Source of the DNA: a virus | Length of the DNA: 37,708 nucleotides | Virus record (IMG/VR): IMGVR_UViG_3300009149_000116 | Location: 1-37,708 of that record | Reading direction: 5' to 3' (one strand) | Position numbers and translations under genes: made by a program | Shown: positions 2,930 to 30,700 of the stretch, one piece after another | Position numbering within the stretch: the stretch's first letter is position 1 | How the letters are laid out: every line of letters begins with the position of its first letter | Notes under the pieces: model-generated | Databases searched by the model: none | What the model saw: the letters and a program-made list of their open reading frames with translations, nothing else | Told to the model about the DNA's origin: nothing

Positions 2930-3496
2930 ATGAGTGAAAGACCAACGAACAAGGAGCTTAGGGCATGGATGGATGAGAACTTTACAGAGGGCCAGATAGA
3001 GGCCTATACCTTAATCCACCCTGATCTTGGTGGTCTATCTATTAGGGCTGCAGCTAAAAAACTAGGGATTACTGTTCGATCAGTAGAACGGCGTATAGCT
3101 TGTATGAGAGCAACGTTCCCACATGCTTTTAGGTTTGAGAGAATGTGTACATATGAGCAGGAGCTAATAGCTAAATCTAGAGTACCTGAATGGGAAATGA
3201 AGACTTTAAGAGGTATCATGGGCCATACTAAACAACTAGCTACTAGGTATAACGTACCATTTGAACTCACTGAGGATGAGTTTCTTGAGATTATACGTCA
3301 GCCCTGTATAGTATGTGATAGAGAAGGATTCAGAGATGCTATAACTGAGGATGGTAGGCACTTTAAGTACAACATACTTGTGTTAAGAATTTTTTCAGAA
3401 GGCTTCAACTATTTAAATTCATATCCAATATGTACTCATTGTAAAAACTATCAAGGTTGGAGAGCCTCTCGACGTTTTAATAGGTTAGGATTTTAA
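2930..3496 (+). CDS. HTH regulator-like protein with degenerate HNH fold
   Basis: 188 residues and the first well-supported gene behind the early promoter, with AAAGG upstream of the ATG. The N-terminal part has a sigma region 4/LuxR-like helix-turn-helix (SIRAAAKKLGITVRSVERRI, about residues 36-55). The C-terminal part carries CIVC and then CTHC, with an intervening segment patterned like phage HNH proteins (a short strand, G-F/Y, N, P-x-C-x2-C). The catalytic histidines of HNH are not present. The likely reading is a DNA-binding regulator that evolved from an HNH endonuclease, keeping the zinc fold as a DNA-binding element. Function as an early transcription regulator is inferred from its position only. 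Confidence 0.65.
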   Translation: MSERPTNKELRAWMDENFTEGQIEAYTLIHPDLGGLSIRAAAKKLGITVRSVERRIACMRATFPHAFRFERMCTYEQELIAKSRVPEWEMKTLRGIMGHTKQLATRYNVPFELTEDEFLEIIRQPCIVCDREGFRDAITEDGRHFKYNILVLRIFSEGFNYLNSYPICTHCKNYQGWRASRRFNRLGF

Positions 3497-7652: not shown

Positions 7653-7667
7653 GTGTGGGGAAGTAAC

Positions 7668-8831
7668 ATGGACAATGAATCAATACAAATAAAATGTCAT
7701 TGCTGTGATAATTTATTTGATGAGGAAGGTTTGACATCATATAAAATTGAGGGTGGTAATTTAGAAGTTTCATTATGTGAAACCTGTTATGGTGATGAAA
7801 TTGGAAGATGCGAAAACTGTGGCGGTTTAGAATATAATGATGACATGATACGGTCAGATATTACATCTGATTACTATTGTAAGGATTGCTATAGCGAGAT
7901 ATTTACATCTTGTGATGAATGTGGTTACGAAATATATATTGATAATGGTCGTAGCCATAGTGAATTATGTAGTGAGTGTGATGAAGAGAGGTGGGCTGAT
8001 GGTGATGAGCGTTGTTGTAGCTCATGGAATTATCACGGTACGGATAGCAAACTGTTTTATGGTATTGAGTTAGAGGTTGGCTCTGAAAGTTATATGGGAT
8101 TAAAAAGTATGTTTATAAACAACCTTGATGAGGATTTCTTTGATATTCACAGTGATTGTTCTATTACAGAGGATGATATAGAAGATGAAGCAGAAATTGT
8201 TTCTCACCCTGCTACATATAAATTCTTAAAAGAACATCCCGAATTATGGAACAATGTATTAAGGTATAGACATAAGGGTGTAATCAGTTATAGAACCGGG
8301 ACATGCGGTATACATATACATTTGAGTAGAAGTTATTTTACTACTGAACACTTAGAGAGGTTCTTACAAATGATATATTGCCAGTCCTCATTTACTTATC
8401 TTATTAGTCAACGTAACAGTAGGGCATTAAGCCAATGGGCAGCATTATACGATAGACATAATGACAATAAACGATATACTAAACGTACACTTAAAGAAAA
8501 AATGCAGAAAGACAGGTATAACCAAGACAGGTATGAAGCTGTTAATTTAAGCAGCATATATACCATCGAGCTAAGGCTATTTAGGGGAACACTAAACCAA
8601 ACAGCATTTTGGAAAAACATAGAATATGTACAAGCATTGGTGGAGTTTACTAAAGATGCTAATAATAAACTAACACTATCAAAGTTCTTAAACTATGTAT
8701 CAGAGAATAAAGATGATTATAGTAATCTACATAAGTGGATTATAAAACGTCGTGCAACATTAGTGCCTGATAAAGAGCCTGTTACGTTTAAGAAGGTGAA
8801 ACGCATACTCAAACACTTGGAGTTAGCATAA
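7668..8831 (+). CDS. Amidoligase-fold protein with zinc ribbons, copy 1
   Basis: 387 residues from the ATG at 7668 (GGGGAAG upstream; an in-frame GTG at 7653 is unlikely). The N-terminal 110 residues have three successive four-cysteine zinc ribbons (CHCC/CETC, CENC/CKDC, CDEC/CSEC). The rest matches the amidoligase (COOH-NH2 ligase) fold related to glutamine synthetase and ATP-grasp-type ligases. It shows GIELE at 132-136, SDCS at 162-165, EIVSHP at 176-181, GIHIHLS at 214-220, and a late N-x-R-like core ending ELRLFRGTLN at 301-310. Such enzymes join a carboxylate to an amine using ATP. It overlaps the next gene, a paralogue, by one base. Substrate unknown. Confidence 0.82.
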   Translation: MDNESIQIKCHCCDNLFDEEGLTSYKIEGGNLEVSLCETCYGDEIGRCENCGGLEYNDDMIRSDITSDYYCKDCYSEIFTSCDECGYEIYIDNGRSHSELCSECDEERWADGDERCCSSWNYHGTDSKLFYGIELEVGSESYMGLKSMFINNLDEDFFDIHSDCSITEDDIEDEAEIVSHPATYKFLKEHPELWNNVLRYRHKGVISYRTGTCGIHIHLSRSYFTTEHLERFLQMIYCQSSFTYLISQRNSRALSQWAALYDRHNDNKRYTKRTLKEKMQKDRYNQDRYEAVNLSSIYTIELRLFRGTLNQTAFWKNIEYVQALVEFTKDANNKLTLSKFLNYVSENKDDYSNLHKWIIKRRATLVPDKEPVTFKKVKRILKHLELA

Positions 8832-10144
8832 TGCCTACTAATTTTGATGAAGCAGTAGTAATTTCAGCTTATAATGAACTTAGTAATGTAGTTAATACTG
8901 CACATGACGCCGGGTTAGGGATGCTATGTAGTTGTAGTATATGTAATGCACATATTACAGAAAATAACTGTTATAATGACAGTGAGGTACATAATGGCTT
9001 ATCTTTTATGAGGTGGCCCTTTCCAGTTTGTATAGATTTAGAGGACTGTAGTGTTGGCAGGCATATAGGTTGTACGTGTCACTTTTCTTTTGGTTATACT
9101 ATACGAATTTGTTGGGATTGCTTTGCAAGTATTAGTGGTGCTTATTATAGGTATGTAGATAGTAGTATAAATACATTTATTACTGCTATAGGTACATCCC
9201 ATAATGATGACTCTCTTTGTGTAGCAAATAGCCTAAATGCTATAGCATCAAGAAGTGAAGAAGATTATGATGATAACTCAAGTTGCAGGTATTGTGATAG
9301 AAATGATAGTAGTGTTACTGCCCATGAAGATACGTGGGGTAATGATATATATTTATGTGAAAGATGTGAAAGAAATGGAAATCATTTAATACATGATTAT
9401 ACATATGAACCTGAATTAACATTCTATGAGACTATTAAAGATAAACGAACAGAGTTATTTTATGGTATTGAATTAGAAGTAGAAGTTTTACCTGATTTTA
9501 GAATACCAGATGTAATAAGAAAATTACCAGACTTTACTTATGTTAAAAGCGACAGTAGTATTATGAGGGGTTTTGAAATTGTTTCTCATCCTGCTACTTA
9601 TAATTGGCTATTAGAGCATATTGATGATTGGAATAACATTTTAGATATACGTAACTACGGTTGTCGTAGTTATAATACACGAACATGCGGTATGCACATA
9701 CATATGAGTAAGGCCGCTTTTGGTAGACATCACTTGTATAAGTACTTATATTTTATGTATAATCCAGTTAATAAGACAGCAATAACACAAATCAGCCAGC
9801 GTGAGGATTGTTTATTGGATAGGTGGTCTGGTTTTAATAACGACCTTAGAATGATAAAAGCAAAAGCATTAACTCGTGCTGAAGTGGGTGATAGACATAC
9901 GGCTGTTGGTCTTGGACGTATAAGTACTGTAGAACTAAGAATATTTAGGGGGACATTAAACCCAGTAGCATTTTGGAAAAACATAGAGTTTGCACATGCG
10001 TTGTATAACTTTACTAAAGATAATGGATTAAAAAGTATGATATGGATAATGTTTATAGAATATGTTAAGGCTAACAAGCGTGACTATCCAAACCTAAACA
10101 AGTTTTTATTCTGTGAACAAACTGAAACTATACTGAATTATTAG
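8831..10144 (+). CDS. Amidoligase-fold protein with zinc ribbon, copy 2
   Basis: 437 residues, a paralogue of the preceding gene with a larger cysteine-rich N-terminal region (CSCSIC, CTCH, CWDC, then CRYC/CERC at about 152-179). The catalytic-like core is GIELEVE at 212-218, KSDSSI at 239-244, EIVSHP at 249-254, GMHIHMS at 287-293 and ELRIFRGTLN at 368-377, followed by FWKNIE as in copy 1. Both copies keep all these motifs, so both are probably active. Two tandem ligases suggest either two different couplings or a heterodimer. It is followed by a glutamine amidotransferase in the same frame after 18 bases. Confidence 0.82.
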   Translation: MPTNFDEAVVISAYNELSNVVNTAHDAGLGMLCSCSICNAHITENNCYNDSEVHNGLSFMRWPFPVCIDLEDCSVGRHIGCTCHFSFGYTIRICWDCFASISGAYYRYVDSSINTFITAIGTSHNDDSLCVANSLNAIASRSEEDYDDNSSCRYCDRNDSSVTAHEDTWGNDIYLCERCERNGNHLIHDYTYEPELTFYETIKDKRTELFYGIELEVEVLPDFRIPDVIRKLPDFTYVKSDSSIMRGFEIVSHPATYNWLLEHIDDWNNILDIRNYGCRSYNTRTCGMHIHMSKAAFGRHHLYKYLYFMYNPVNKTAITQISQREDCLLDRWSGFNNDLRMIKAKALTRAEVGDRHTAVGLGRISTVELRIFRGTLNPVAFWKNIEFAHALYNFTKDNGLKSMIWIMFIEYVKANKRDYPNLNKFLFCEQTETILNY

Positions 10145-10147
10145 AAA

Positions 10148-10154
10148 GGAAGGG
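10148..10154 (+). promoter_or_regulatory. Ribosome-binding site that decides an AUU start
   Basis: GGAAGGG at 10148-10154, within AAAGGAAGGG, lies eight bases before ATT at 10163. The next usable codon, TTG at 10169, would sit 14 bases away and would remove the cysteine that must be residue 2 of the amidotransferase. Both spacing and the protein family favour ATT. Confidence 0.75.
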
Positions 10155-10162
10155 TAGCAACT

Positions 10163-11128
10163 ATTTGTTTGATAATAGTAAAACCGGCAGGTACAGTGAT
10201 AACGAGACGTACATTAAAAACAGGCTTTCAGGCTAATCCAGATGGTGCTGGAATGATGTACACGCATGACAATGTACTCGAAGTTGTAAAAGGATTCTTT
10301 CACTTTCGGGGATTTTATAAGACGTTTAGGAGTATTGAGCGTGCATTTCCAAAAACTAATATAATAGTACATTTTAGAATAACTACCAGTGGATTAAAGA
10401 ATACTCCTAATTGTCATCCGTTCGTAGTTGACGATACATTGGCATTTGCACACAATGGGATATTTTTAGGATTGGGCACACTATTAGAATCTGATACTAT
10501 GATATTTAACAAAACAGTATTACAGTTGTTACCAAAGGGGTTTCTTGATATACCACGTATCAAAGAAGCATTAGATTTATACATACAAAGAGGTTTTTGT
10601 AAGCTGGCATTTCTAGATAAGGATAATAATTATACTATTATAAATCCAAGTGCCGGGGAATGGAACAACGGCGTATGGTTTTCTAATACATCATATGAGG
10701 ATAGGGCTGTATTCGGTTTTACTAAATATGATTATAACGGGTATGATTATTCTAATACATATCGTAACTGTTCAATGTGTAGACAATTAATACCACTAAG
10801 AGAAATGGAATGGCATGAAGAAGTGGGTGGTTTTGTATGTGATGTGTGTAATTACTCTACTCAGACATCTGCAGGTGACGACTGTGAGGTATGTGGGGTA
10901 TGTGGTTTCTACCCAAGTGAAACGTCCCATGCAGGAATATCATACTGTGCAGATTGTTGGAATGAATTAACAATGTCATATAAAGTGCATTGTCCATGTT
11001 GCCATGAGTATACTACACTAAGACTATTAATGTCTGATGATTATAAATGTGATTCGTGTGGAGCATATGTAACTCCTGATGAATATAAAGATTTGTTACA
11101 CCAAACAGCCATGAAAGGTGTTGATTAA
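10163..11128 (+). CDS. Class II glutamine amidotransferase with zinc ribbons, AUU start
   Basis: About 321 residues. Family hallmarks are NPDGAG at 25-30, HFRITTSG at 70-77, CHPF at 84-87 and AHNGI at 96-100, all typical of N-terminal-nucleophile glutaminases. These enzymes need a cysteine directly after the initiator Met. The frame reads ATT TGT TTG ATA ATA, so starting at ATT gives MCLIIVKPAG, while the first conventional start (TTG, 10169) lacks the nucleophile. The C-terminal third adds several zinc ribbons (CSMC/CDVC, CEVC/CADC, CPCC/CDSC). Predicted to release ammonia from glutamine, probably for the amidoligases immediately upstream. Confidence 0.85.
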   Translation: MCLIIVKPAGTVITRRTLKTGFQANPDGAGMMYTHDNVLEVVKGFFHFRGFYKTFRSIERAFPKTNIIVHFRITTSGLKNTPNCHPFVVDDTLAFAHNGIFLGLGTLLESDTMIFNKTVLQLLPKGFLDIPRIKEALDLYIQRGFCKLAFLDKDNNYTIINPSAGEWNNGVWFSNTSYEDRAVFGFTKYDYNGYDYSNTYRNCSMCRQLIPLREMEWHEEVGGFVCDVCNYSTQTSAGDDCEVCGVCGFYPSETSHAGISYCADCWNELTMSYKVHCPCCHEYTTLRLLMSDDYKCDSCGAYVTPDEYKDLLHQTAMKGVD

Positions 11129-14988: not shown

Positions 14989-15888
14989 ATGCTCTACACA
15001 AACGAACGTAAATTATGTAAGCTACAAGATCGTTTGCCCACTGTTATATCTGATATAGGTAAACCAGATATGAGTATCCCAACAGGTATAGCTTCATTAG
15101 ATGATAAGATGAATGGGTTATATCCCAGTGATTTAATTGTTATTGGTGGTCGTCCGTCGATGGGTAAATCTTCTTTGTTAACTGACATAGCATTATACAT
15201 CAGTCGTAACAGACACGTGCTTATATTTAGTTTAGAAATGACTGCGTATAATTTAACACAACGTATGCTATGCAACTTAGCTGGCGTTAGTTTATTTAAG
15301 TTACGTAAGAATACTCTAACTGAACGTGAACTATGTGATATTAATAATACGTCCAAAGTATTATACAAGCCTGATAACTATAATATATCTATTGATGAGA
15401 CAACAAGGATAACACCGGATGATATGGAAGAAACTATAAGTATGCTTAATGACTCTGGTGATAAAGTTGATTGTGTACTTATTGATTACATACAGTTGAT
15501 GGGCCTACGTAGTTCATGTGAGAATAGAAACCAAGAGCTATCAGTTATATCAAGACAGCTTAAAGCAATAGCTAATAAGTTTGGTATACCTGTTGTAGTT
15601 CTATCTCAGTTAAATAGAAGTGTAGAGTATAGAGAAAACAGACGACCACTAATGAGTGACTTACGTGACTGTGGTTCTATTGAACAAGATGCAGATGTAG
15701 TTTTATTATTGTATCGAGAAGGGTATTATACTAGAGTTAATAACCCAGACGCTATTGATAACGGGACAGCAGAAATGATATTAACTAAGGTAAGAAATGG
15801 TGCTACTGGGATAGCTGTAGCTACATGGGATGCAGAAGGGATGAGTTTTAATCCGAGACTCAGATTAAATATGGAGGATAACTTTTGA
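14989..15888 (+). CDS. dnaB: Replicative DNA helicase, DnaB type
   Basis: 299 residues comprising the RecA-like motor only; the usual N-terminal collar domain of DnaB is absent. Walker A GRPSMGKS at 54-61, Walker B CVLIDYIQL at 162-170, a sensor Gln in VVLSQLNR at 203-210, and the arginine-finger segment around DLRDCGSIEQDAD. It would unwind the fork as a hexamer. AGGAG precedes the ATG. Primase is encoded separately at 17132, so the two activities, fused in T7 gp4, are split here. Confidence 0.92.
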   Translation: MLYTNERKLCKLQDRLPTVISDIGKPDMSIPTGIASLDDKMNGLYPSDLIVIGGRPSMGKSSLLTDIALYISRNRHVLIFSLEMTAYNLTQRMLCNLAGVSLFKLRKNTLTERELCDINNTSKVLYKPDNYNISIDETTRITPDDMEETISMLNDSGDKVDCVLIDYIQLMGLRSSCENRNQELSVISRQLKAIANKFGIPVVVLSQLNRSVEYRENRRPLMSDLRDCGSIEQDADVVLLLYREGYYTRVNNPDAIDNGTAEMILTKVRNGATGIAVATWDAEGMSFNPRLRLNMEDNF

Positions 15889-16376
15889 AAAGATATAAAG
15901 ATTATAATTATTTTATTACTAAGAGCGGGTTAGTATGGTCAGGATTTACTAATAAATGGCTGAGTCCTTTTTCTAATAGAGATGGTTACGCAGAGATATC
16001 TTTAAGCAAAGAAGGTAAACAACAAACTCGTTTAGTACACAGATTAGTTTTAGAGGCGTTTGTTGGGCCATGTCCAAATGGTAAAGTGTGTAGGCATTTA
16101 GATGGTAATCCTGCAAATAATAATTTGAGTAATATATGTTGGGATACCCAAAGTAATAACTTAAAAGATAAAGCTAAACATAATACTGTGCCTTGGGGCG
16201 AGACTTCCCCCAATCATAGGTTAGAGAAAGAAGAAGTCCAAGCTATTAGATATTTGTATTTGAAGTGTGGTTTAACCCAAAAAGATATAGCTGATAGATA
16301 CGATATTACACAATCGCACGTATCACGATTAGTAAATAAAAACTGTTGGTCACGACTAAGTTTAGGAGAATTTTAA
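15885..16376 (+). CDS. HNH homing endonuclease (NUMOD4/HNH type)
   Basis: 163 residues starting at TTG overlapping the helicase stop, with GGAGG eight bases upstream. The N-terminal part follows the NUMOD4 pattern (GLVWS then W.SPFSNRDGY). The middle matches the HNH_3 motif (RLVLEAFVGP, CRHLDGNPANNNLSNICW, where N-x3-N-L-x2-I-x-W is typical). The C-terminal part has a helix-turn-helix (LTQKDIADRYDITQSHVSRL). Phage homing endonucleases of this build insert beside replication genes, as here. Probably free-standing and active. Confidence 0.88.
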   Translation: MKRYKDYNYFITKSGLVWSGFTNKWLSPFSNRDGYAEISLSKEGKQQTRLVHRLVLEAFVGPCPNGKVCRHLDGNPANNNLSNICWDTQSNNLKDKAKHNTVPWGETSPNHRLEKEEVQAIRYLYLKCGLTQKDIADRYDITQSHVSRLVNKNCWSRLSLGEF

Positions 16377-17131: not shown

Positions 17132-17962
17132 ATGAAACTACAGGATTTTAATATTGTTGATGAGTGTAATCATTATTACACAGCATTTTGTCCAATACAT
17201 AATGATGTTAATACTCCTAACGTTACTATTACTAGGATTGGTAAGTATATAGGTCACTGGAAATGTTGGGCTTGTGGTGAAGAGGGCGTAGTTAGTGATA
17301 TGGTATTACAAGGTATCAACAAAACTATCATACATAAACCTAAACAGAGAGTTGGTATAAATTGGAAATCTCTGAATAGGTATTATATAAATAAAGGTAA
17401 GCTAAATAGCAGTAAGTTATTAGAGTTGGCAGATAGTTTAGACCTACCTTTGTGGACGCTTGTTCAGCTTGGTTTAGGTTATGATGGTAAAGCTTATACT
17501 TTTCCTGTACATAATGAGGATGGGGAGATTATTGGTATCGCCCTAAGATTTCCTGATGGTAGTAAGCGAATGGTTAGAGGTAGTGAAGTAGGTATATACT
17601 TAGGTAGCAATGTGTTAGATGTATCATGGGCTAGAATTAGGAATAGGTTAGTAATATGTGAAGGGGCTACTGACTTAGCTACTATGCTGCGTATATATTC
17701 AACTGCTATAGGAATGTTTAATAATGAAACTCCAATAGAGATAGTATATAATTATATATTAAAACATAAACCAGCCGAAACTATTATATTTCCAGACGGG
17801 GATACGCCGGGTGTAAACGGTGCTAATAAACTAGCACGTAGAATAATGGATATCACTCATGTAAAAGTTTTCCCTATGCTTGCTGGATATGATGTAAGGA
17901 AGTACTTTGCTGAGAAAGATAGAGAAGCAGTCTCATATATTTTAGAGTGTATACATGCCTAA
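17132..17962 (+). CDS. DNA primase with CHC2-type zinc and TOPRIM domains
   Basis: 276 residues. The N-terminal zinc site has C20-x2-H23 and C45-x2-C48 in the CHC2 pattern. The TOPRIM domain has E177 in VICEGATD and D222-G-D224 in FPDGDTPG, which hold the catalytic Mg2+. Size is like the primase half of T7 gp4 and lacks a helicase domain. It would synthesise RNA primers for lagging-strand synthesis with the nearby DnaB-type helicase. The last bases overlap the next gene. Confidence 0.88.
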   Translation: MKLQDFNIVDECNHYYTAFCPIHNDVNTPNVTITRIGKYIGHWKCWACGEEGVVSDMVLQGINKTIIHKPKQRVGINWKSLNRYYINKGKLNSSKLLELADSLDLPLWTLVQLGLGYDGKAYTFPVHNEDGEIIGIALRFPDGSKRMVRGSEVGIYLGSNVLDVSWARIRNRLVICEGATDLATMLRIYSTAIGMFNNETPIEIVYNYILKHKPAETIIFPDGDTPGVNGANKLARRIMDITHVKVFPMLAGYDVRKYFAEKDREAVSYILECIHA

Positions 17963-18296
17963 GAAAAAACAATCAGCAGAAGAATTAAAACGTAAGAAAC
18001 GTGTTAGACACTACCGAAATGCTTATGGCATATCTATAGAAACCTATAATAAATTATTAAAGTCACAGAAGTATAGGTGTGCTATATGTAACAAACCTAA
18101 TCTACCCACTGACCAGCACTTTGATATTGATCACAACCATAAAACAGGTCATGTTAGAGGGCTGCTATGTGGTTATTGTAACCGTAGTATTTTACGCTTT
18201 TTCCGTGACAATAAAGTTATTGCTGAGGGATTGGTTAAGTATTTATCAAGAGCATTAAAGGAAGATAAGTTGTGGAAAAAGAACGTGCGTTGGTGA
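17955..18296 (+). CDS. Endonuclease VII-like / HNH protein
   Basis: 113 residues, overlapping the primase stop. The pattern YGISIETYNKLLKSQKYRC, then CAIC, FDIDHNHKTGHVRGLLC and GYCNRSI is that of the phage recombination endonuclease VII family: two zinc CxxC pairs around a DxDHxH metal site. This family resolves branched DNA before packaging, but the same fold also occurs in free-standing mobile endonucleases. Basic N terminus. Good domain match; the role (resolvase or mobile element) is open. Confidence 0.82.
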   Translation: MPKKKQSAEELKRKKRVRHYRNAYGISIETYNKLLKSQKYRCAICNKPNLPTDQHFDIDHNHKTGHVRGLLCGYCNRSILRFFRDNKVIAEGLVKYLSRALKEDKLWKKNVRW

Positions 18297-20043: not shown

Positions 20044-20385
20044 ATGTTTGAAGGTGCAAGAAAGTATGGGGCACACAACTACCGAGCTATCGGTACTCGT
20101 GCTACTGTATACTATAATGCAGCTAGACGACACATGGATGCATGGTTAGAAGGTGAGGATATAGACCCCGATAGTGGTATTCATCATCTGATGAAAGCGG
20201 TAGCATGTTTTATGGTGCTTAGAGATTCAATGATTATGGGTAACTTCGAAGATGATCGACCGCTACGTTATGCTGATGGGTTCTCTATTGAGAAGTTTAA
20301 TAAATTAACTGAGGATATAATAAATAAGTATCCTGAATGTGTTGAACCGTTTACTGAAGTTAATTCAAAAAAGGAGCAAAGTTGA
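20044..20385 (+). CDS. dATP/dGTP diphosphohydrolase-like main part (frame-split)
   Basis: 113 residues from the ATG at 20044 with TAGGA six bases upstream. The family pattern is clear: FEGARKYGAHNYR, ARRHMDAWLEGEDIDPDSG, IHHLMKAVACFMVLRD, and then EDDRPL. This is the MazG-like all-alpha fold (His/Glu/Asp metal ligands) thought to hydrolyse deoxynucleoside triphosphates. The N-terminal 29 residues lie in another frame. The upstream frame contains VGLA before the ATG, showing that this ORF is the continuation of the fragment. Whether two separate chains are functional is open. Confidence 0.75.
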   Translation: MFEGARKYGAHNYRAIGTRATVYYNAARRHMDAWLEGEDIDPDSGIHHLMKAVACFMVLRDSMIMGNFEDDRPLRYADGFSIEKFNKLTEDIINKYPECVEPFTEVNSKKEQS

Positions 20386-20777
20386 AAGATAACATACCAT
20401 CATGGGAATATGTTGCAGGTTTTTATGATGGGGAAGGTTGTTTTAGAGTTTATCCATATAAGAATACAAATTCTAATGGACATATATATACAGGAGAACG
20501 TCCGTTTGTTGTTGTATCACAGGTTAAAGATAACAATAAAGTTTTACATCTTATTTCCAATAAATTTAAGGACTATGATATAAAACATTCTTTTTACGAA
20601 GATAAGTATAAAGAGTATAAACATATTGGGCGACCTATGTCAGTTATTCAAATAACGGATAGACGAAGCTGCAAAGTTTTTATAGAGTATGTTCTTCCTT
20701 TTCTTATAATAAAAAAAGAGGAAGCTAAAATAGTTTTAACTTTTTGTAGGAGAAAATTAAAATCAAAGCGTACATGA
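20382..20777 (+). CDS. LAGLIDADG homing endonuclease, single motif
   Basis: 131 residues, TTG start overlapping the preceding TGA, with AAAAAAGGAG upstream. The motif WEYVAGFYDGEGCF (about residues 8-21) is the LAGLIDADG helix with its catalytic acidic residue; the downstream pattern of strands and a basic C terminus fits a single-motif homodimeric enzyme. It lies between two nucleotide-metabolism genes and ends over the start of the next one (ATGA). LAGLIDADG endonucleases are much rarer in phages than HNH or GIY-YIG types. Confidence 0.85.
   Translation: MKDNIPSWEYVAGFYDGEGCFRVYPYKNTNSNGHIYTGERPFVVVSQVKDNNKVLHLISNKFKDYDIKHSFYEDKYKEYKHIGRPMSVIQITDRRSCKVFIEYVLPFLIIKKEEAKIVLTFCRRKLKSKRT
20747..20752 (+). 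promoter_or_regulatory. Ribosome-binding site suggesting an AUC start
   Basis: TAGGAG at 20747-20752 lies nine bases before an in-frame ATC at 20762 but 21 bases before the first ATG (20774). Starting at ATC would give MKAYMSHSIRG, matching the start of the deoxyribosyltransferase-like family. A coupled restart at ATG (overlapping TGA) is the alternative. Confidence 0.4.
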
Positions 20778-21175
20778 GCCATTCTATACGTGGTCGAGCC
20801 GGTAATGCTGCGACAGGTGAGGACATGCTAGCTAATAATAAGAAAGCTATTGAAGTTGGTGTTGAGCTACGTAGATTATGTCCCGGACTAAGGTTATATA
20901 TTCCTGCCGAAATGGATTTCTTTTTACAAGACAAAGGTATTGAACCTATTGAGATAGGAGAAAAAGTTATCCTTGCTCTGGACTGTAAGATTCTAGAACA
21001 GTGTGATACACTATTAGTATACACAGGCCCAGATGATTATGTAAGTGGTGGTATGCAAATAGAAATTAATCATGCACCAGTAGATTGTATGCAGATTTTC
21101 TATTTTGATGAAGTAACACATGGAGTTGTGAAGATTATAAATTCTTTAATTAAAGGTAATGATAAGGAGAACTAA
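20774..21175 (+). CDS. Nucleoside 2-deoxyribosyltransferase-like protein
   Basis: 133 residues from the ATG overlapping the LAGLIDADG stop. SHSIRGRAG at the N terminus, an acidic central segment with PAEMDFF, DCKILEQCDTLLVYTG and SGGMQIEINHA match the DUF4406/deoxyribosyltransferase-like fold, where a Glu in the SGGMQIE segment is nucleophile-like. The first strand normally begins a few residues earlier (KAYMSHS is encoded in frame upstream), so the true start may be ATC at 20762. Predicted to act on nucleosides or nucleotides, in keeping with the mazG-type neighbours. Confidence 0.7.
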   Translation: MSHSIRGRAGNAATGEDMLANNKKAIEVGVELRRLCPGLRLYIPAEMDFFLQDKGIEPIEIGEKVILALDCKILEQCDTLLVYTGPDDYVSGGMQIEINHAPVDCMQIFYFDEVTHGVVKIINSLIKGNDKEN

Positions 21176-21870
21176 TGAGTAACATTTTAGTACCAGGTGA
21201 TCTTCATTGTCCTTGGCAGCGTGCTGGTTATTTACAATTTCTAATAGATTTATACTATCAATGGAATTGTGATGAGGTTATATTTATTGGAGACGTAGTA
21301 GATATGCACGCGGTATCCTTCTTTAATACAGACCCCGGTTGCCCCAGCGGTTTAGAAGAATACATTAGAACCAAGGAAGCAGTAGCTAAGTTTTATAAAG
21401 CGTTTCCTAAAGCAACAGTTGTATTAGGTAATCATGATAAACGTGTAGTTAGAAAAGCCAGAAGTGCTGATATACATGAAGTCTTTATTAAGTCCTATGC
21501 TGATATTTGGGAAACGCCGGGATGGGATTGGGTTGAAGATTGTATACGTGATGATATTTATTTTTATCACGGAGACGGGCAGGGTGGAGAATATCCTGCT
21601 GCTAATGCCGTAAGAAAAATGTTGATGTCAGTTGTAATGGGACATAATCACACTGCATCAGGTATAAAATATTATAGCAACCCTACGCAAAGGTTCTTTG
21701 CACTTGATACAGGAGCAGGTTGTGATGATAGGGCATTAGCGTTTGCTTACGCTGGTAATAATAAACGTAAGAGTGTATTGAGTGCTGCTGTTATTATTGA
21801 CGGTACGCCTTATCTTGAACCTATGTTGTGTGGTAAGGGAGAACCATATTGGGATGGTAATTTCAAATAA
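21175..21870 (+). CDS. Metallophosphoesterase, second copy
   Basis: 231 residues, ATG overlapping the previous stop. Motifs in order: GDLH at 8-11, GDVVD at 39-43, GNHD at 85-88, YHGD at 131-134 and GHNH at 156-159, the complete set of metal ligands of the calcineurin-like fold. Longer and distinct from the 12840 enzyme. Directly upstream of the DNA polymerase, with which it is coupled; processing of DNA ends or nucleotides is plausible. Substrate unknown. Confidence 0.87.
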   Translation: MSNILVPGDLHCPWQRAGYLQFLIDLYYQWNCDEVIFIGDVVDMHAVSFFNTDPGCPSGLEEYIRTKEAVAKFYKAFPKATVVLGNHDKRVVRKARSADIHEVFIKSYADIWETPGWDWVEDCIRDDIYFYHGDGQGGEYPAANAVRKMLMSVVMGHNHTASGIKYYSNPTQRFFALDTGAGCDDRALAFAYAGNNKRKSVLSAAVIIDGTPYLEPMLCGKGEPYWDGNFK

Positions 21871-22922
21871 TGGATAAACATATACTTACAAAATGGACAG
21901 AGTTTAGGGACTGGTGTAGGGGTGATATCTCTACACTAGCTCTGGACTTTGAGTGTACGAACGCCAGCTATCTTGGATTGCAGGTAGCTGGTTGGTCGGC
22001 ATGTAATGGAGAATCACTATGCTATGTAGACGTATTAGATAACCCACAGTATCAGATATTATGTAATCAGTTAGCTCATATACTACGTGATAAAGTTAAG
22101 TGTTTGATAATGCACAATGCCCCCTTCGATATGCGTATATTAAAACAACTAGACATACAACATACAGATAATATATTCTGTACTATGACAGCAGCACACC
22201 TATTGAACGAGAACACACCTAAAGGTTTAAAGTGGCAGACAGTACACGTATTAAAACAAACACGTGAGACACTAAACTTTAGTGATGCTATATCAGAGGG
22301 CTTTCATTCACGTAAATTCTATGAGTATGCTACTGATGATGCTGTTAATACATTTGATTTATATAAGCTTCAAGTTCCCCAATTAAAGAAACAGGAGTTA
22401 TGGGATTTGTGGTATAATATAGAACGCCCGTTTCAGTATTGTCTAAGAGACTTGGCTATAAACGGCGTGTTAGTTGACAAAGTTAACTTGGTTGCTGCAC
22501 AAGAGCAAACTACTCAAGATGTTAATGAGTTAGAGATAGAAATGTATAAGTCTGCTGGCGTTAGTTATTATACACAGATGTTATTAGACGGGGGTTACGA
22601 AATTATCCCAAAGGTCAACTTGAACAGCCCACTACAACTTATTGATTTGTTACAACATCTTGGTGTTACATTAAAAGAAACAACAGATGGTGGACAGTTA
22701 AGTACTAAAGAAGCTGTATTAGTATCAGTTAGACGTCAGCATCCGTTTGTAGGGTTGTTGTTAAAGTATCGTACTATTAGTAAAATGCTTAATGGATTTC
22801 TTATACCACTACCTAAGTTTATACAAGCAGATAGTAGGATACGTGGTTCGTTTCACAATTGCGTGGCAGTAACTGGTAGGTTATCGTGTACTAAACCTAG
22901 TTTACAATGTTTACCTAAATAG
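21870..22922 (+). CDS. polA: DNA polymerase I family, exonuclease and thumb part
   Basis: 350 residues. The 3'-5' proofreading domain is intact: D26-x-E28 (LALDFECT), N-x3-FD in MHNAPFDMRI, and YATDDAVNTFDLY. The polymerase thumb follows, and the ORF stops right after TGRLSCTKPSLQCLPK, the conserved TGRLS...PNLQNIP segment just before motif A. The remaining palm and fingers are encoded at 22933-23700 in another frame. No 5' nuclease domain is present, as in T7-type polymerases. The stop TAG overlaps the Shine-Dalgarno of the second half. Confidence 0.92.
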   Translation: MDKHILTKWTEFRDWCRGDISTLALDFECTNASYLGLQVAGWSACNGESLCYVDVLDNPQYQILCNQLAHILRDKVKCLIMHNAPFDMRILKQLDIQHTDNIFCTMTAAHLLNENTPKGLKWQTVHVLKQTRETLNFSDAISEGFHSRKFYEYATDDAVNTFDLYKLQVPQLKKQELWDLWYNIERPFQYCLRDLAINGVLVDKVNLVAAQEQTTQDVNELEIEMYKSAGVSYYTQMLLDGGYEIIPKVNLNSPLQLIDLLQHLGVTLKETTDGGQLSTKEAVLVSVRRQHPFVGLLLKYRTISKMLNGFLIPLPKFIQADSRIRGSFHNCVAVTGRLSCTKPSLQCLPK

Positions 22923-22932
22923 GAAATTAAAT

Positions 22933-23700
22933 ATGGCTAAGGTAGATGTAAGATCATTTATAATAGCACCTGATGGTAAGGTATTACTCTGTGCTGATTA
23001 TGCTGGACAGGAGCTACGTGTATTGGCACACGTGGCTCAAGAGCCAACAATGATAGCGGCGTTCTTAAAGAACCAAGATGTACATTTGCTCTTAGCTAAT
23101 GACTTCTATGACTTGAATACTCCAGAAGAATATATTACCACTACTCATTCAGAGTATAACAGTACCAAGACTAAGTTTAAGCAACAGCGTAATGATATCA
23201 AAACTGTTAACTTTGGGCTAGCTTATGGAAAGACTAAGTATGGGTTCGCTGCTGATTGGGGTTGGTCTGTGCCCAAAGCTGAACAATTCATAGCAAAATA
23301 CTTTGAGCGTTTTCCTCAGATTAAAACAGCTATTGATAAATGTAATGAGCTAGTTAAGAAACAAAAAGCTATACGTAACCTAACTGGACGTATACGTAGG
23401 TTCGACCATGTAGATGATAGGGTGTTACGGCAGGCATTTAATTTCTGTATTCAGGGTGCGTCTGCGGATATGGTAAAGAAGGCTGCGGGCGATACTTATA
23501 AGCTATGCCAGCTACGTCCTGAGTGGGACTGTAAATTAGTATTAAGTGTACATGACGAGTTAGTGTATGAAGTTAACGATGAGTACAAAGATATAGCATT
23601 AGCTGAAATTAAGTACACTATGGAACACGCTGTTGAGTTGTGTGTTCCTATGATAGTGGATATAAATTATGGTTTAAATTATTCAATAGCCAAGTGCTAA
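22933..23700 (+). CDS. polA: DNA polymerase I family, palm and fingers part
   Basis: 255 residues. Motif A DYAGQELR at 22-29 with catalytic D22; motif B R86-x3-K90-x3-F94 then YG at 98-99, the O-helix pattern; motif C VHDE at 206-209. It begins just before motif A and with the upstream ORF makes a complete family A polymerase. AGGAA lies eight bases before the ATG. The frame differs from that of the first half by +1; removing the single T of the TAG stop would give one continuous reading frame through PKRKLNMAKVDV. The two chains may assemble non-covalently into the active enzyme. Confidence 0.93.
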   Translation: MAKVDVRSFIIAPDGKVLLCADYAGQELRVLAHVAQEPTMIAAFLKNQDVHLLLANDFYDLNTPEEYITTTHSEYNSTKTKFKQQRNDIKTVNFGLAYGKTKYGFAADWGWSVPKAEQFIAKYFERFPQIKTAIDKCNELVKKQKAIRNLTGRIRRFDHVDDRVLRQAFNFCIQGASADMVKKAAGDTYKLCQLRPEWDCKLVLSVHDELVYEVNDEYKDIALAEIKYTMEHAVELCVPMIVDINYGLNYSIAKC

Positions 23701-26337: not shown

Positions 26338-26883
26338 ATGAGAAAAAAGAGACCTAAATTATCAGAAGTAATAAAGAGCTATGGTATGCGTGGATACAAC
26401 GGCCTAAGTATTAAAGATATATATAGCGTGGAGGATAATACTGCCAGACCTATACAGGCTGATATAATTATAGGGATGGGAAATGGTGCAAGAAAATATA
26501 ACGTCCATAAAATGCAGCACAATACTAAATTGTGTGAAGTAGAGGTTATTGAACTAGTACCATATTACCTACAAAAAACTATTCCAGCTAGTACAGATTT
26601 GAGTTGGCATGGGTGGGTATACGGCGGAGAGCCTACACCTACTAATGATTATGATACTGCTGAATGGCGTAAACTTAGAACAACAGTACTTAAACGAGAT
26701 AAACATAAATGTCAGGAATGTGGTACAAATAAATGTCTTACTGTTCATCACGTTAAACCAAGACAAGGCGGTGGTAAAAATGAAGCTAGGAATCTAATTA
26801 CCTTATGTAGTAAATGCCATGATTTAATCGAAGTGGGGCTATCTGAGGCCTTAAATGAAAACAGTGATGGGCAGGACGAATAA
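26338..26883 (+). CDS. HNH endonuclease
   Basis: 181 residues. The C-terminal domain is a standard HNH nuclease: WRKLRTTVLKRDKHKCQECG, then LTVHHVKPRQGGG, NEARNLITLCSKCHDL, with the H-N-H residues and zinc cysteines intact. The N-terminal 100 residues are of unknown type and may recognise DNA. Another mobile or host-degrading nuclease; it sits at the end of the accessory gene run. Confidence 0.9.
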   Translation: MRKKRPKLSEVIKSYGMRGYNGLSIKDIYSVEDNTARPIQADIIIGMGNGARKYNVHKMQHNTKLCEVEVIELVPYYLQKTIPASTDLSWHGWVYGGEPTPTNDYDTAEWRKLRTTVLKRDKHKCQECGTNKCLTVHHVKPRQGGGKNEARNLITLCSKCHDLIEVGLSEALNENSDGQDE

Positions 26884-27728: not shown

Positions 27729-30700
27729 TACCTACCTCTCTTACGCCCGCTTCCTCTACCACTTCCCCTACTGCCACTACTTGGTGGCTCTTCACCAAGT
27801 GCGTAGCTAGACCATATTAATCTACGTGGGTCACGAGTGTCTAAACTGTTTAATTCCATTATACCTTTTATGGTACGCTTAGGTTGGCTCCAAGGTATGC
27901 CACCAGCCCTAGCAGCTGCCCCTGCTAAATGTACTCCCGCACCAGCATAATCAAACTCACCATCTTTAGTACTAGTACTGGCATCATATAATTCCTTAGC
28001 CCAACCAAACCCTACAGTGGATGAAGGGTCATATCCATTTAGTACAGCAGATATAATCTTACCAAATACAAATAATGGTGCTGCTGCAAATGACGCCATA
28101 TCCTTAGCCCAATCCTCTGGGTCAGGTGGTGTGAATCCCCTATTGATTAAACCAAGAACTGTGGCTGGTAAAATATAACTCATCAATACCCTGTATGCTG
28201 CTAGGCCGGGAGATATCTCACCACGCTTGGTAGCACCTAATATATCATGAGACCAATAGTTATAGTTCTGATTAATCTGGTTCTGGAATAATGTAAACAG
28301 TTTAGATAATTCACCGCCCCTAAAGAAATGTGGCAAGTCCATAATATCTGCCATAGGTTGAGTTCGTTCTATTACTGAATCAGCATAGGTGATAGCATCT
28401 GCCTCTGATACAGACTTCATCTTCATATCATAAGCAGCTTTCCAAGCTGTAGTAACTGTAGCTTGGTCTAACAAACGCACAAAGAATAAAGCCTTTTCTG
28501 ATAAGGCCCTCTTACCACCAATCTGCTGACGAACACTTCTACGCCTTGCCATCTCACGTATTTCACGTTCCATGTTTCTATGCTTCACTACTACAGATTT
28601 ACCATGTACAAAATCTTTTAATGCTTTAGGATTTCTAGCACCTTCTGCAAATGCTGCCATAGCATATGGTATCATCCTAGGGTCTTCTGCTAAAGCTAAA
28701 GACATGGATAATGGTTGTTTAAGTGCAGTAACAATATTCAATCCTAACGCCGAAACAACTGAATTACGTCTTAGTATACCAACAGTTCTAGATAACCAAT
28801 CATTCTCTAATGATGTACGTTCACTAGTCACGTCCTGTAACCACTTATCTAGTATCTTATTACCAGCACCACGAGTCTTTTCCTGTATAATCTTTCTAAA
28901 GTTCTTATTCTTTATAACCTTATTAACATTATATACAGGTAGAGCCATAGCTTTATAATGCTCTACTGTTCTAGCATGTGCAACATAGTTAGACAATGCA
29001 TCTAAGTTTAATGCACCAATACCTTTAGTACGTTCCTTGGTCATTGTTTTTACTAGGCCCAGTTTAGGTTCAGCTACCTCACCTAGTAGTTGGGTTATCA
29101 AATCATCAAACTCTTCTTCAGCATTAACAAACCTAGCAATCCTACCTTCAGGTAATTTACGTATGCCTGAGTAACCTTTAATCTTAGGGAGTGCTGTTCC
29201 AGTAGTCTTAAAGTATTTATCTGCTATCTCATCATAGTCAGAACTATACTGTTCTAATAACCAGCGTCCCATTTCTACTAGTTTCTCGTCCTGAATAAAC
29301 TCACTTAAAACTAGTTGAATATCTTCATCACTTAACTTATTACCCTCTTTTAAATTCTTGAGTTTATCAGCATCCTTAGTAGCTAAGAATATTTCTAACA
29401 TATCTACAGGCCTTAGTTTTAAATCAGGCCTAATTTCAATCCTCTTATTGTATAGTTCTCTAATGTTTATATCCTTACTGGCTAGGAAATCATTAAGCTG
29501 CTTCATCCTATAACTACGACCAAGTGCTGATTGGGCAACAGCAGCCCTAATAGGTTTCCATATATATTCTTTTAATGAACCATTAGTTCCACCATCTAAC
29601 CATTCTATCATACGACCGATACGGGCCATACCCCAATGGTAATGTGTAATTGTATCCTTGACAACATCTTTAATTTCTGTAGTTCTGCTTTTACGTGAGC
29701 CTATAACTTTAGCATTAAACGCATCCGGATTTGCTTTTGCTAGGCCAGCAACTATCTCATTAACTTCTTTATCTATAGCATCTTTGTACGTAACTTCTTG
29801 AGTAGCTGGTGTACGTAAATCCTGTAGTGTAGATATAGCATCATTAAGTGACAACCCTACTGATATTAATTTAGCTAGTTCTTTAACTACAGTAGTCTTA
29901 GGGTTATCAAACTTCTTTCTCTCAAAAAACTCTATACGTCCTTCCTTCTTTGTTTGCTCCTTCTGCTCCTCTGATTCGGCAGCAGCTTTACTCTTAGGTG
30001 CATCTGATCTTCCACTACTACTAGCTTCTATATCCAATATAACCTCTTCGCCTGTTACAGAGTCTACATATTTATCACCTTCTCGTATAACCTCTTGCTC
30101 TGTTATACCAGTTCTACTACCAGATGTAGTTTTATAAACATTAACTTGTGGTTCAGCCCTTTCACTTATAATTTGTTTAGTACCCTCTTCTTCTTCAAGC
30201 TCGCTAACAACTACCTTCTCTGCCCATGCCCTAGCCCTATCTTCAGGTACGCCATCCTCTATAAGTTCCTGAGTCATAGTATCTACTTTCTTCTGCCAGA
30301 CACTTTCCTCTACATTTTGGTCATTAATAGTGGGTAGCTCTTGTTCCCTACGTTCCATGACCTCATTATTTTCAGACATCTCCACTACTTCATCTACTGT
30401 CATGTCTCCGTTACTAACTGATTCTAATGCTTCAAATATATTACCACCAAATGTTTTGTTAACTTCTTCAGGTGTCCACTCATGTTTAGCCTCAGATACA
30501 ATATTTGAACCTTGTATATTAATAGGTTCACTTACTGAGTCAGCAGCAAACCCCGCAACTGCTTTACCGGCTCCCGGTAGTGCAAATGCTATTGCCATAT
30601 ATGGTAAGTTCTTGAGGTCTGATTCTAATGCACCATTCATTCGTTCCAAAAAACCAGCACCTTTACCAGCACCAAAGTCATCAATATTAAATATAGCCCT

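Follow-up and report, generated by a model that had tools for sequence, protein, structure and literature searches.

The phage sequence analyzed here, 37,708 nucleotides of IMGVR_UViG_3300009149_000116 (referred to in its full length as the window), very probably carries a working class II glutamine amidotransferase gene that is translated from an AUU start codon at position 10163. The open reading frame (positions 10163 to 11128, plus strand; 321 amino acids counted from ATT) is, as judged from sequence comparisons and a structural model, that of a class II (Ntn, N-terminal cysteine) enzyme with predicted glutaminase activity. The family's requirement for an N-terminal cysteine dictates the AUU start. 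Comparison with homologous sequences demonstrated the family, the position of the start, the Shine-Dalgarno region that precedes it, and the conservation of the cysteine.

Identification of the enzyme family

Matches to the Pfam class II amidotransferase models were below cutoff, and those to the NCBIfam glmS and purF models were far below cutoff. In the PHROGs collection, phrog_25883 matched with an E value of 1e-11, and a family resembling glucosamine synthase matched at 3e-6. In an alignment of 20 relatives the invariant columns included C2, N25, G28, G30, H70, R72, T75, G77, H85, P86, H97, N98, G99, and D111, which is the pattern of a class II amidotransferase; among these, R72, N98, G99, and D111 are the Arg, Asn-Gly, and Asp residues conserved in the glutamine site. 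The AlphaFold model of the protein (mean pLDDT of 83, with blocks of at least 92 across residues 1 to 180) has a predicted Ntn fold and matched EgtC, GlmS, and PurF with Z scores of 10 to 14 (up to 14.3) over approximately 170 residues. These structural alignments begin at residue 2 of the model, which pairs with residue 1 of mature GlmS and PurF and with residue 2 of EgtC. Thus, the window protein shares with EgtC, the glutaminase domain of GlmS, and PurF an Ntn fold that begins at residue 2 and the Cys, Arg, Asn-Gly, and Asp residues, but it is only 14 to 19% identical to these proteins and is a different enzyme. The homologues, PHROGs matches, invariant residues, and fold bear out an earlier sequence-only reading of this DNA, which had recognized a class II amidotransferase. 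The C-terminal region contains cysteine pairs resembling zinc ribbons.

The proposed start codon and its Shine-Dalgarno sequence

The codons that follow the in-frame TAG at 10142 to 10144 are AAA GGA AGG GTA GCA ACT ATT TGT TTG, and translation of the frame past this stop gives K G R V A T I C L I I V K P A G. The frame is intact throughout and closes at TAA 11126 to 11128. No ATG, GTG, or TTG is present in frame between the TAG and ATT 10163. The ATT at 10163 to 10165 is the sole start that gives Met-Cys, and provided that it is the start, the catalytic Cys2 (TGT, 10166 to 10168) directly follows the initiator Met. The nearest ordinary start codon, TTG at 10169 to 10171, loses Cys2. The reading frame therefore agrees with the earlier contention that only ATT preserves the nucleophile.

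A Shine-Dalgarno region, AAGGAAGGG, is located at 10146 to 10154, and its core, GGAAGGG (10148 to 10154), ends eight bases ahead of ATT 10163, a distance that had previously been described as ideal and was confirmed here. When the strength of the Shine-Dalgarno sequence was computed as pairing with the 16S tail for the listed candidate starts, ATT 10163 had a duplex of -8.3 kcal/mol at an aligned spacing of 7. ATT 10163 thus combines the features sought in an AUU start: a position matching the starts of homologues, a properly spaced Shine-Dalgarno sequence, and no usable ordinary start. RNA folding over the start was no better than that of shuffled sequences (z of -0.4), ruling out a special RNA structure at this site.

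Homologues and their start codons

The homologue set comprised 156 distinct proteins from phage records and IMG/VR, with the window included. Matches to 34 phage records were found with tblastn, each aligned from query residue 1; a search of the phage records at the DNA level with positions 8831 to 11128 gave no match. Start codons among the 156 were ATG in 154, ATT in one (the window), and ATC in one (L041, contained in the sibling phage G001, IMGVR_UViG_3300024433_000030); none was GTG or TTG. Cys was at position 2 in every one of the 156, as expected from the previous suggestion that it is essential, and the alignment that the sequence-only reading had proposed as a check showed that all begin with Met-Cys. 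ATT, ATC, and ATA together account for approximately 8% of the trinucleotides in the window. The placement of ATT at the position of the homologues' ATG, with Cys next in all 156, is more than chance.

The amidotransferases of three siblings, G001, G003 (IMGVR_UViG_3300027901_000015), and G004 (IMGVR_UViG_3300021467_000021), have 37 to 43% identity to that of the window. The genes of G003 and G004 start with ATG. G001 has the same amidoligase-amidoligase-amidotransferase gene order as the window, and its amidotransferase, 37% identical over the protein, keeps the Cys and has no nearby downstream start. Its sequence indicates that it likely starts at ATC, with less certainty because there is an in-frame GTG 12 bases upstream. 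The Shine-Dalgarno value for this ATC, -10.7, is better than that of every start in the window list; the value for the ATG of the G003 amidotransferase is -4.5. In the phylogenetic tree the start codon changed at least two times, and a tree in which the two non-ATG genes formed one clade was 14.9 log units worse, although the test did not reject it (p-AU of 0.079). A single origin of the ATT in the window and the ATC in G001 is therefore not favored.

Amidoligase neighbors and possible function

Two Amidoligase_2 genes precede the amidotransferase gene on the plus strand. The first (7653 to 8831) matches PF12224 with an E value of 3.7e-13; its start is unsure because the Shine-Dalgarno-like match for ATG 7668 has a long spacing of 11. 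The second (8831 to 10144) matches PF12224 with 22.7 bits versus a cutoff of 22 and phrog_16683 with an E value of 8e-27. It shares a frame with the amidotransferase gene, and its TAG stop is 18 bases before the ATT. The adjacent pair is probably a duplication common to the window, G001, G003, and G004. Both amidoligase genes (7653 to 10144) have cysteine-rich N-terminal regions.

Amidoligases are the usual phage partners of class II amidotransferases, as in the Methylophilales phages MEP401/402 and mycobacteriophage Marvin (PMC10580990). In those modules, as in the window, a Met-Cys amidotransferase is beside a PF12224 amidoligase, and the MEP402 amidotransferase is approximately 38% identical to that of the window over 201 residues. 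However, the MEP401/402 and Marvin genes start with ATG, whereas the window gene has ATT in this place, follows two amidoligase genes, and encodes a C-terminal region that resembles a zinc ribbon.

In the proposed mechanism the ribosome would be positioned at AUU 10163 by the Shine-Dalgarno sequence, possibly aided by coupling to the termination of the amidoligase 18 bases upstream. The initiator tRNA would decode AUU as formyl-Met, and removal of the Met would leave Cys2 at the N terminus as the nucleophile. Ammonia taken from glutamine might then be supplied to the two upstream amidoligases, or the enzyme might work beside them. Output from the AUU start may be lowered, as the sequence-only reading had suggested, and control of this start by IF3 is possible by analogy with infC, the precedent for an IF3-controlled start. 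Because 154 of the 156 homologues use ATG, weak initiation is not conserved across the family, and its family-wide use was rejected. A regulatory role of the start that is shared by the homologues is likewise disfavored by this near-universal ATG.

Alternative explanations for the ATT codon

If translation began at TTG 10169, the amidotransferase domain would be made without its nucleophile and would be either inactive or adapted to another use. Other genes in the window probably do start at TTG, an ordinary start codon, for example at 15885 and 20382, where good Shine-Dalgarno sequences are present. However, the Shine-Dalgarno spacing for TTG 10169 is 13, compared with 0 to 8 for most other listed starts, and the Cys and all the other catalytic residues have been retained. 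Retention of a Cys codon with a correctly spaced Shine-Dalgarno sequence before it would be surprising in a dead gene, and the G001 gene, which does not have a nearby downstream start, keeps the Cys too. Thus, a start at TTG 10169 is very unlikely; the gene could be weakly expressed from TTG, or unexpressed. It is highly improbable that the real codon is ATG and that the ATT arose by a mistake in sequencing or assembly or reflects a minor variant. The sequence is a metagenomic consensus, and one base separates ATG from ATT. However, IMGVR_UViG_3300024262_000176, a nearly identical contig with 10 mismatches and one gap relative to the window over 20.8 kb, carries the same ATT and the same start region of the DUF7768 gene discussed below. 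An isolated assembly error is therefore not the cause, and G001 has ATC at the same site.

There is also a very slight chance that the TAG is read through to produce an amidoligase-amidotransferase fusion, with the Cys freed by processing or with the fusion itself functional. Six sense codons separate the two genes, which share a frame, and some class II amidotransferases carry propeptides. However, the upstream stop in G001 is TAA, readthrough would be unnecessary in the siblings with ATG starts, and the amidoligase and amidotransferase genes of MEP401/402 are separate and overlapping. Furthermore, a strong Shine-Dalgarno sequence directly follows the TAG. Stop-codon readthrough was rejected on the basis of the stop codon differing among siblings and the Shine-Dalgarno sequence following the stop. 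No tRNA genes were found in the window, G001, or G003. There was thus no sign of a suppressor tRNA in the window, and a phage-encoded altered initiator tRNA as the explanation for initiation at AUU was rejected because none of the three yielded a tRNA gene.

Other candidate near-cognate starts

The window was scanned for ATT, ATC, ATA, and CTG codons with good Shine-Dalgarno sequences ahead of any usable ordinary start, and the only real genes returned were the amidotransferase gene and a DUF7768 gene (20762 to 21175, plus strand). As judged from its sequence, the probable start of the DUF7768 gene is ATC 20762 or ATT 20756, with AGGAG at 20748 to 20752 as the Shine-Dalgarno sequence. The value for ATC 20762 is -7.3 at a spacing of 6; that for ATG 20774, the first ordinary ATG, is -0.2, with no Shine-Dalgarno sequence. 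The sibling proteins begin from ATG as MKVKAYLSH (G001) and MRRIKAYLSH (G003), and the window encodes KIKAYMSH upstream of ATG 20774. An open reading frame resembling a homing endonuclease (20382 to 20777) overlaps the 5' end of this gene.

A gene for a small zinc-binding protein in G001 (22253 to 22543, minus strand; also in L041) has ATT where that of G003 has ATG. The G001 sequence IILITGCCNCSNT, with ATT as its first codon, aligns with MTLITKCIGCSNT of G003, which begins from ATG. The Shine-Dalgarno duplex for the ATT is -11.1 kcal/mol, and an ATG without a Shine-Dalgarno sequence sits 10 codons upstream of it. The alignment suggests that the G001 protein probably starts at ATT. Together with the likely ATC start in G001, these candidates show at the sequence level that the amidotransferase gene is no lone oddity.

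Start codons were also compared with those of relatives in approximately 1.9 Mb of fetched phage DNA, a screen rather than a census, in which some items share ancestry. A DNA primase gene on the plus strand has ATT following AAGGA as the sole start at the conserved position in four contigs (L049, 5614 to 6322; L061, 4429 to 5137; L072, 4007 to 4715; and L105, 5584 to 6292). Its first ordinary start is 46 to 54 codons inward and would delete the zinc-binding end, and the sister phages L045 to L047 have ATG in the same context. An unnamed protein beginning IIYGYA has ATT in L241, L244, L245, L246, L248, and L249 and ATG in L238 to L240; a GGAGG-type Shine-Dalgarno sequence precedes the ATT, and an ordinary start is absent for approximately 36 codons. 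Well-supported nonordinary aligned starts with their own Shine-Dalgarno sequences were almost all ATT, and the other codons traced to few or inconsistent alignments.

Near-cognate starts might, tentatively, be a repeated feature of this phage group or, through relaxed initiation, of its hosts, and not special to the amidotransferase gene; this reading would add to the AUU explanation rather than replace it. The ATC of the G001 amidotransferase gene at the corresponding site, the DUF7768 gene, the zinc-binding protein gene, and the ATT codons opposite the relatives' ATG in the primase (four contigs) and the unnamed protein (six contigs) are consistent with this. However, the candidates number only about two per phage, the G003 and G004 amidotransferases use ATG, and the phages with the primase and unnamed protein genes are not close relatives. 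It is therefore a speculative proposal, somewhat doubtful at present, that a group of environmental phages has repeatedly shifted genes to AUU or AUC starts with strong Shine-Dalgarno sequences, through loose host initiation or as a setting of expression, and that gene finders miss them. Similarly uncertain is the suggestion that this one reading covers the amidotransferase twice, the DUF7768 gene, the zinc-binding protein gene, and, elsewhere, the DNA primase and one more protein.

AUU starts elsewhere and their significance

In E. coli, infC and pcnB have AUU starts. Common gene callers accept only ATG, GTG, and TTG, which is why, to our knowledge, annotations contain almost no AUU starts. 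Ordinary gene finders would clip the front ends of proteins that start at AUU or AUC. A catalytic N-terminal residue provides an internal check on the start, and thus this family can support AUU starts from sequence alone.

The previous expectation that AUU initiation is rare is consistent with the single AUG-to-AUU switch among 61,358 ancestral AUG starts in bacteria (PMC5622118), a rarity that counts against an AUU start in the window gene. However, infC and pcnB, which had been offered as the examples, are not the only ones. The AUU start of S. aureus cvfC1 has a strong Shine-Dalgarno sequence, as does that of the window gene, and for S. aureus AUU and AUA starts preceded by strong Shine-Dalgarno sequences the reported output in poor medium is approximately 10% of that from AUG (PMC13009471). 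Y. pestis rcsD-Hpt also has an AUU start (PMC10191623). The window gene has its AUU start in common with infC, pcnB, cvfC1, and rcsD-Hpt, but those are bacterial genes, whereas this is a phage gene whose AUU start is predicted. The literature searched, the coverage of which was incomplete, contained no description of AUU starts in phages. AUU starts are already known and genuinely rare, and recurrence in phages is the more interesting part. If the recurrence is true, then phage start codon use is underestimated, some annotated phage proteins miss active sites or zinc-binding ends, and phages with AUU or AUC starts are natural tests of initiation fidelity.

Additional features of the window

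The DNA polymerase is encoded by two open reading frames in different frames in the window (21870 to 22922 and 22933 to 23700) and by one undivided open reading frame in G003 (28238 to 30061). In G001 an HNH-endonuclease-like open reading frame is located between the polymerase halves. Open reading frames that by eye resemble homing or HNH endonucleases were observed in the window at 422 to 820, 2930 to 3496, 15885 to 16376, 17955 to 18296, 20382 to 20777, and 26338 to 26883, which is many for a 38-kb phage.
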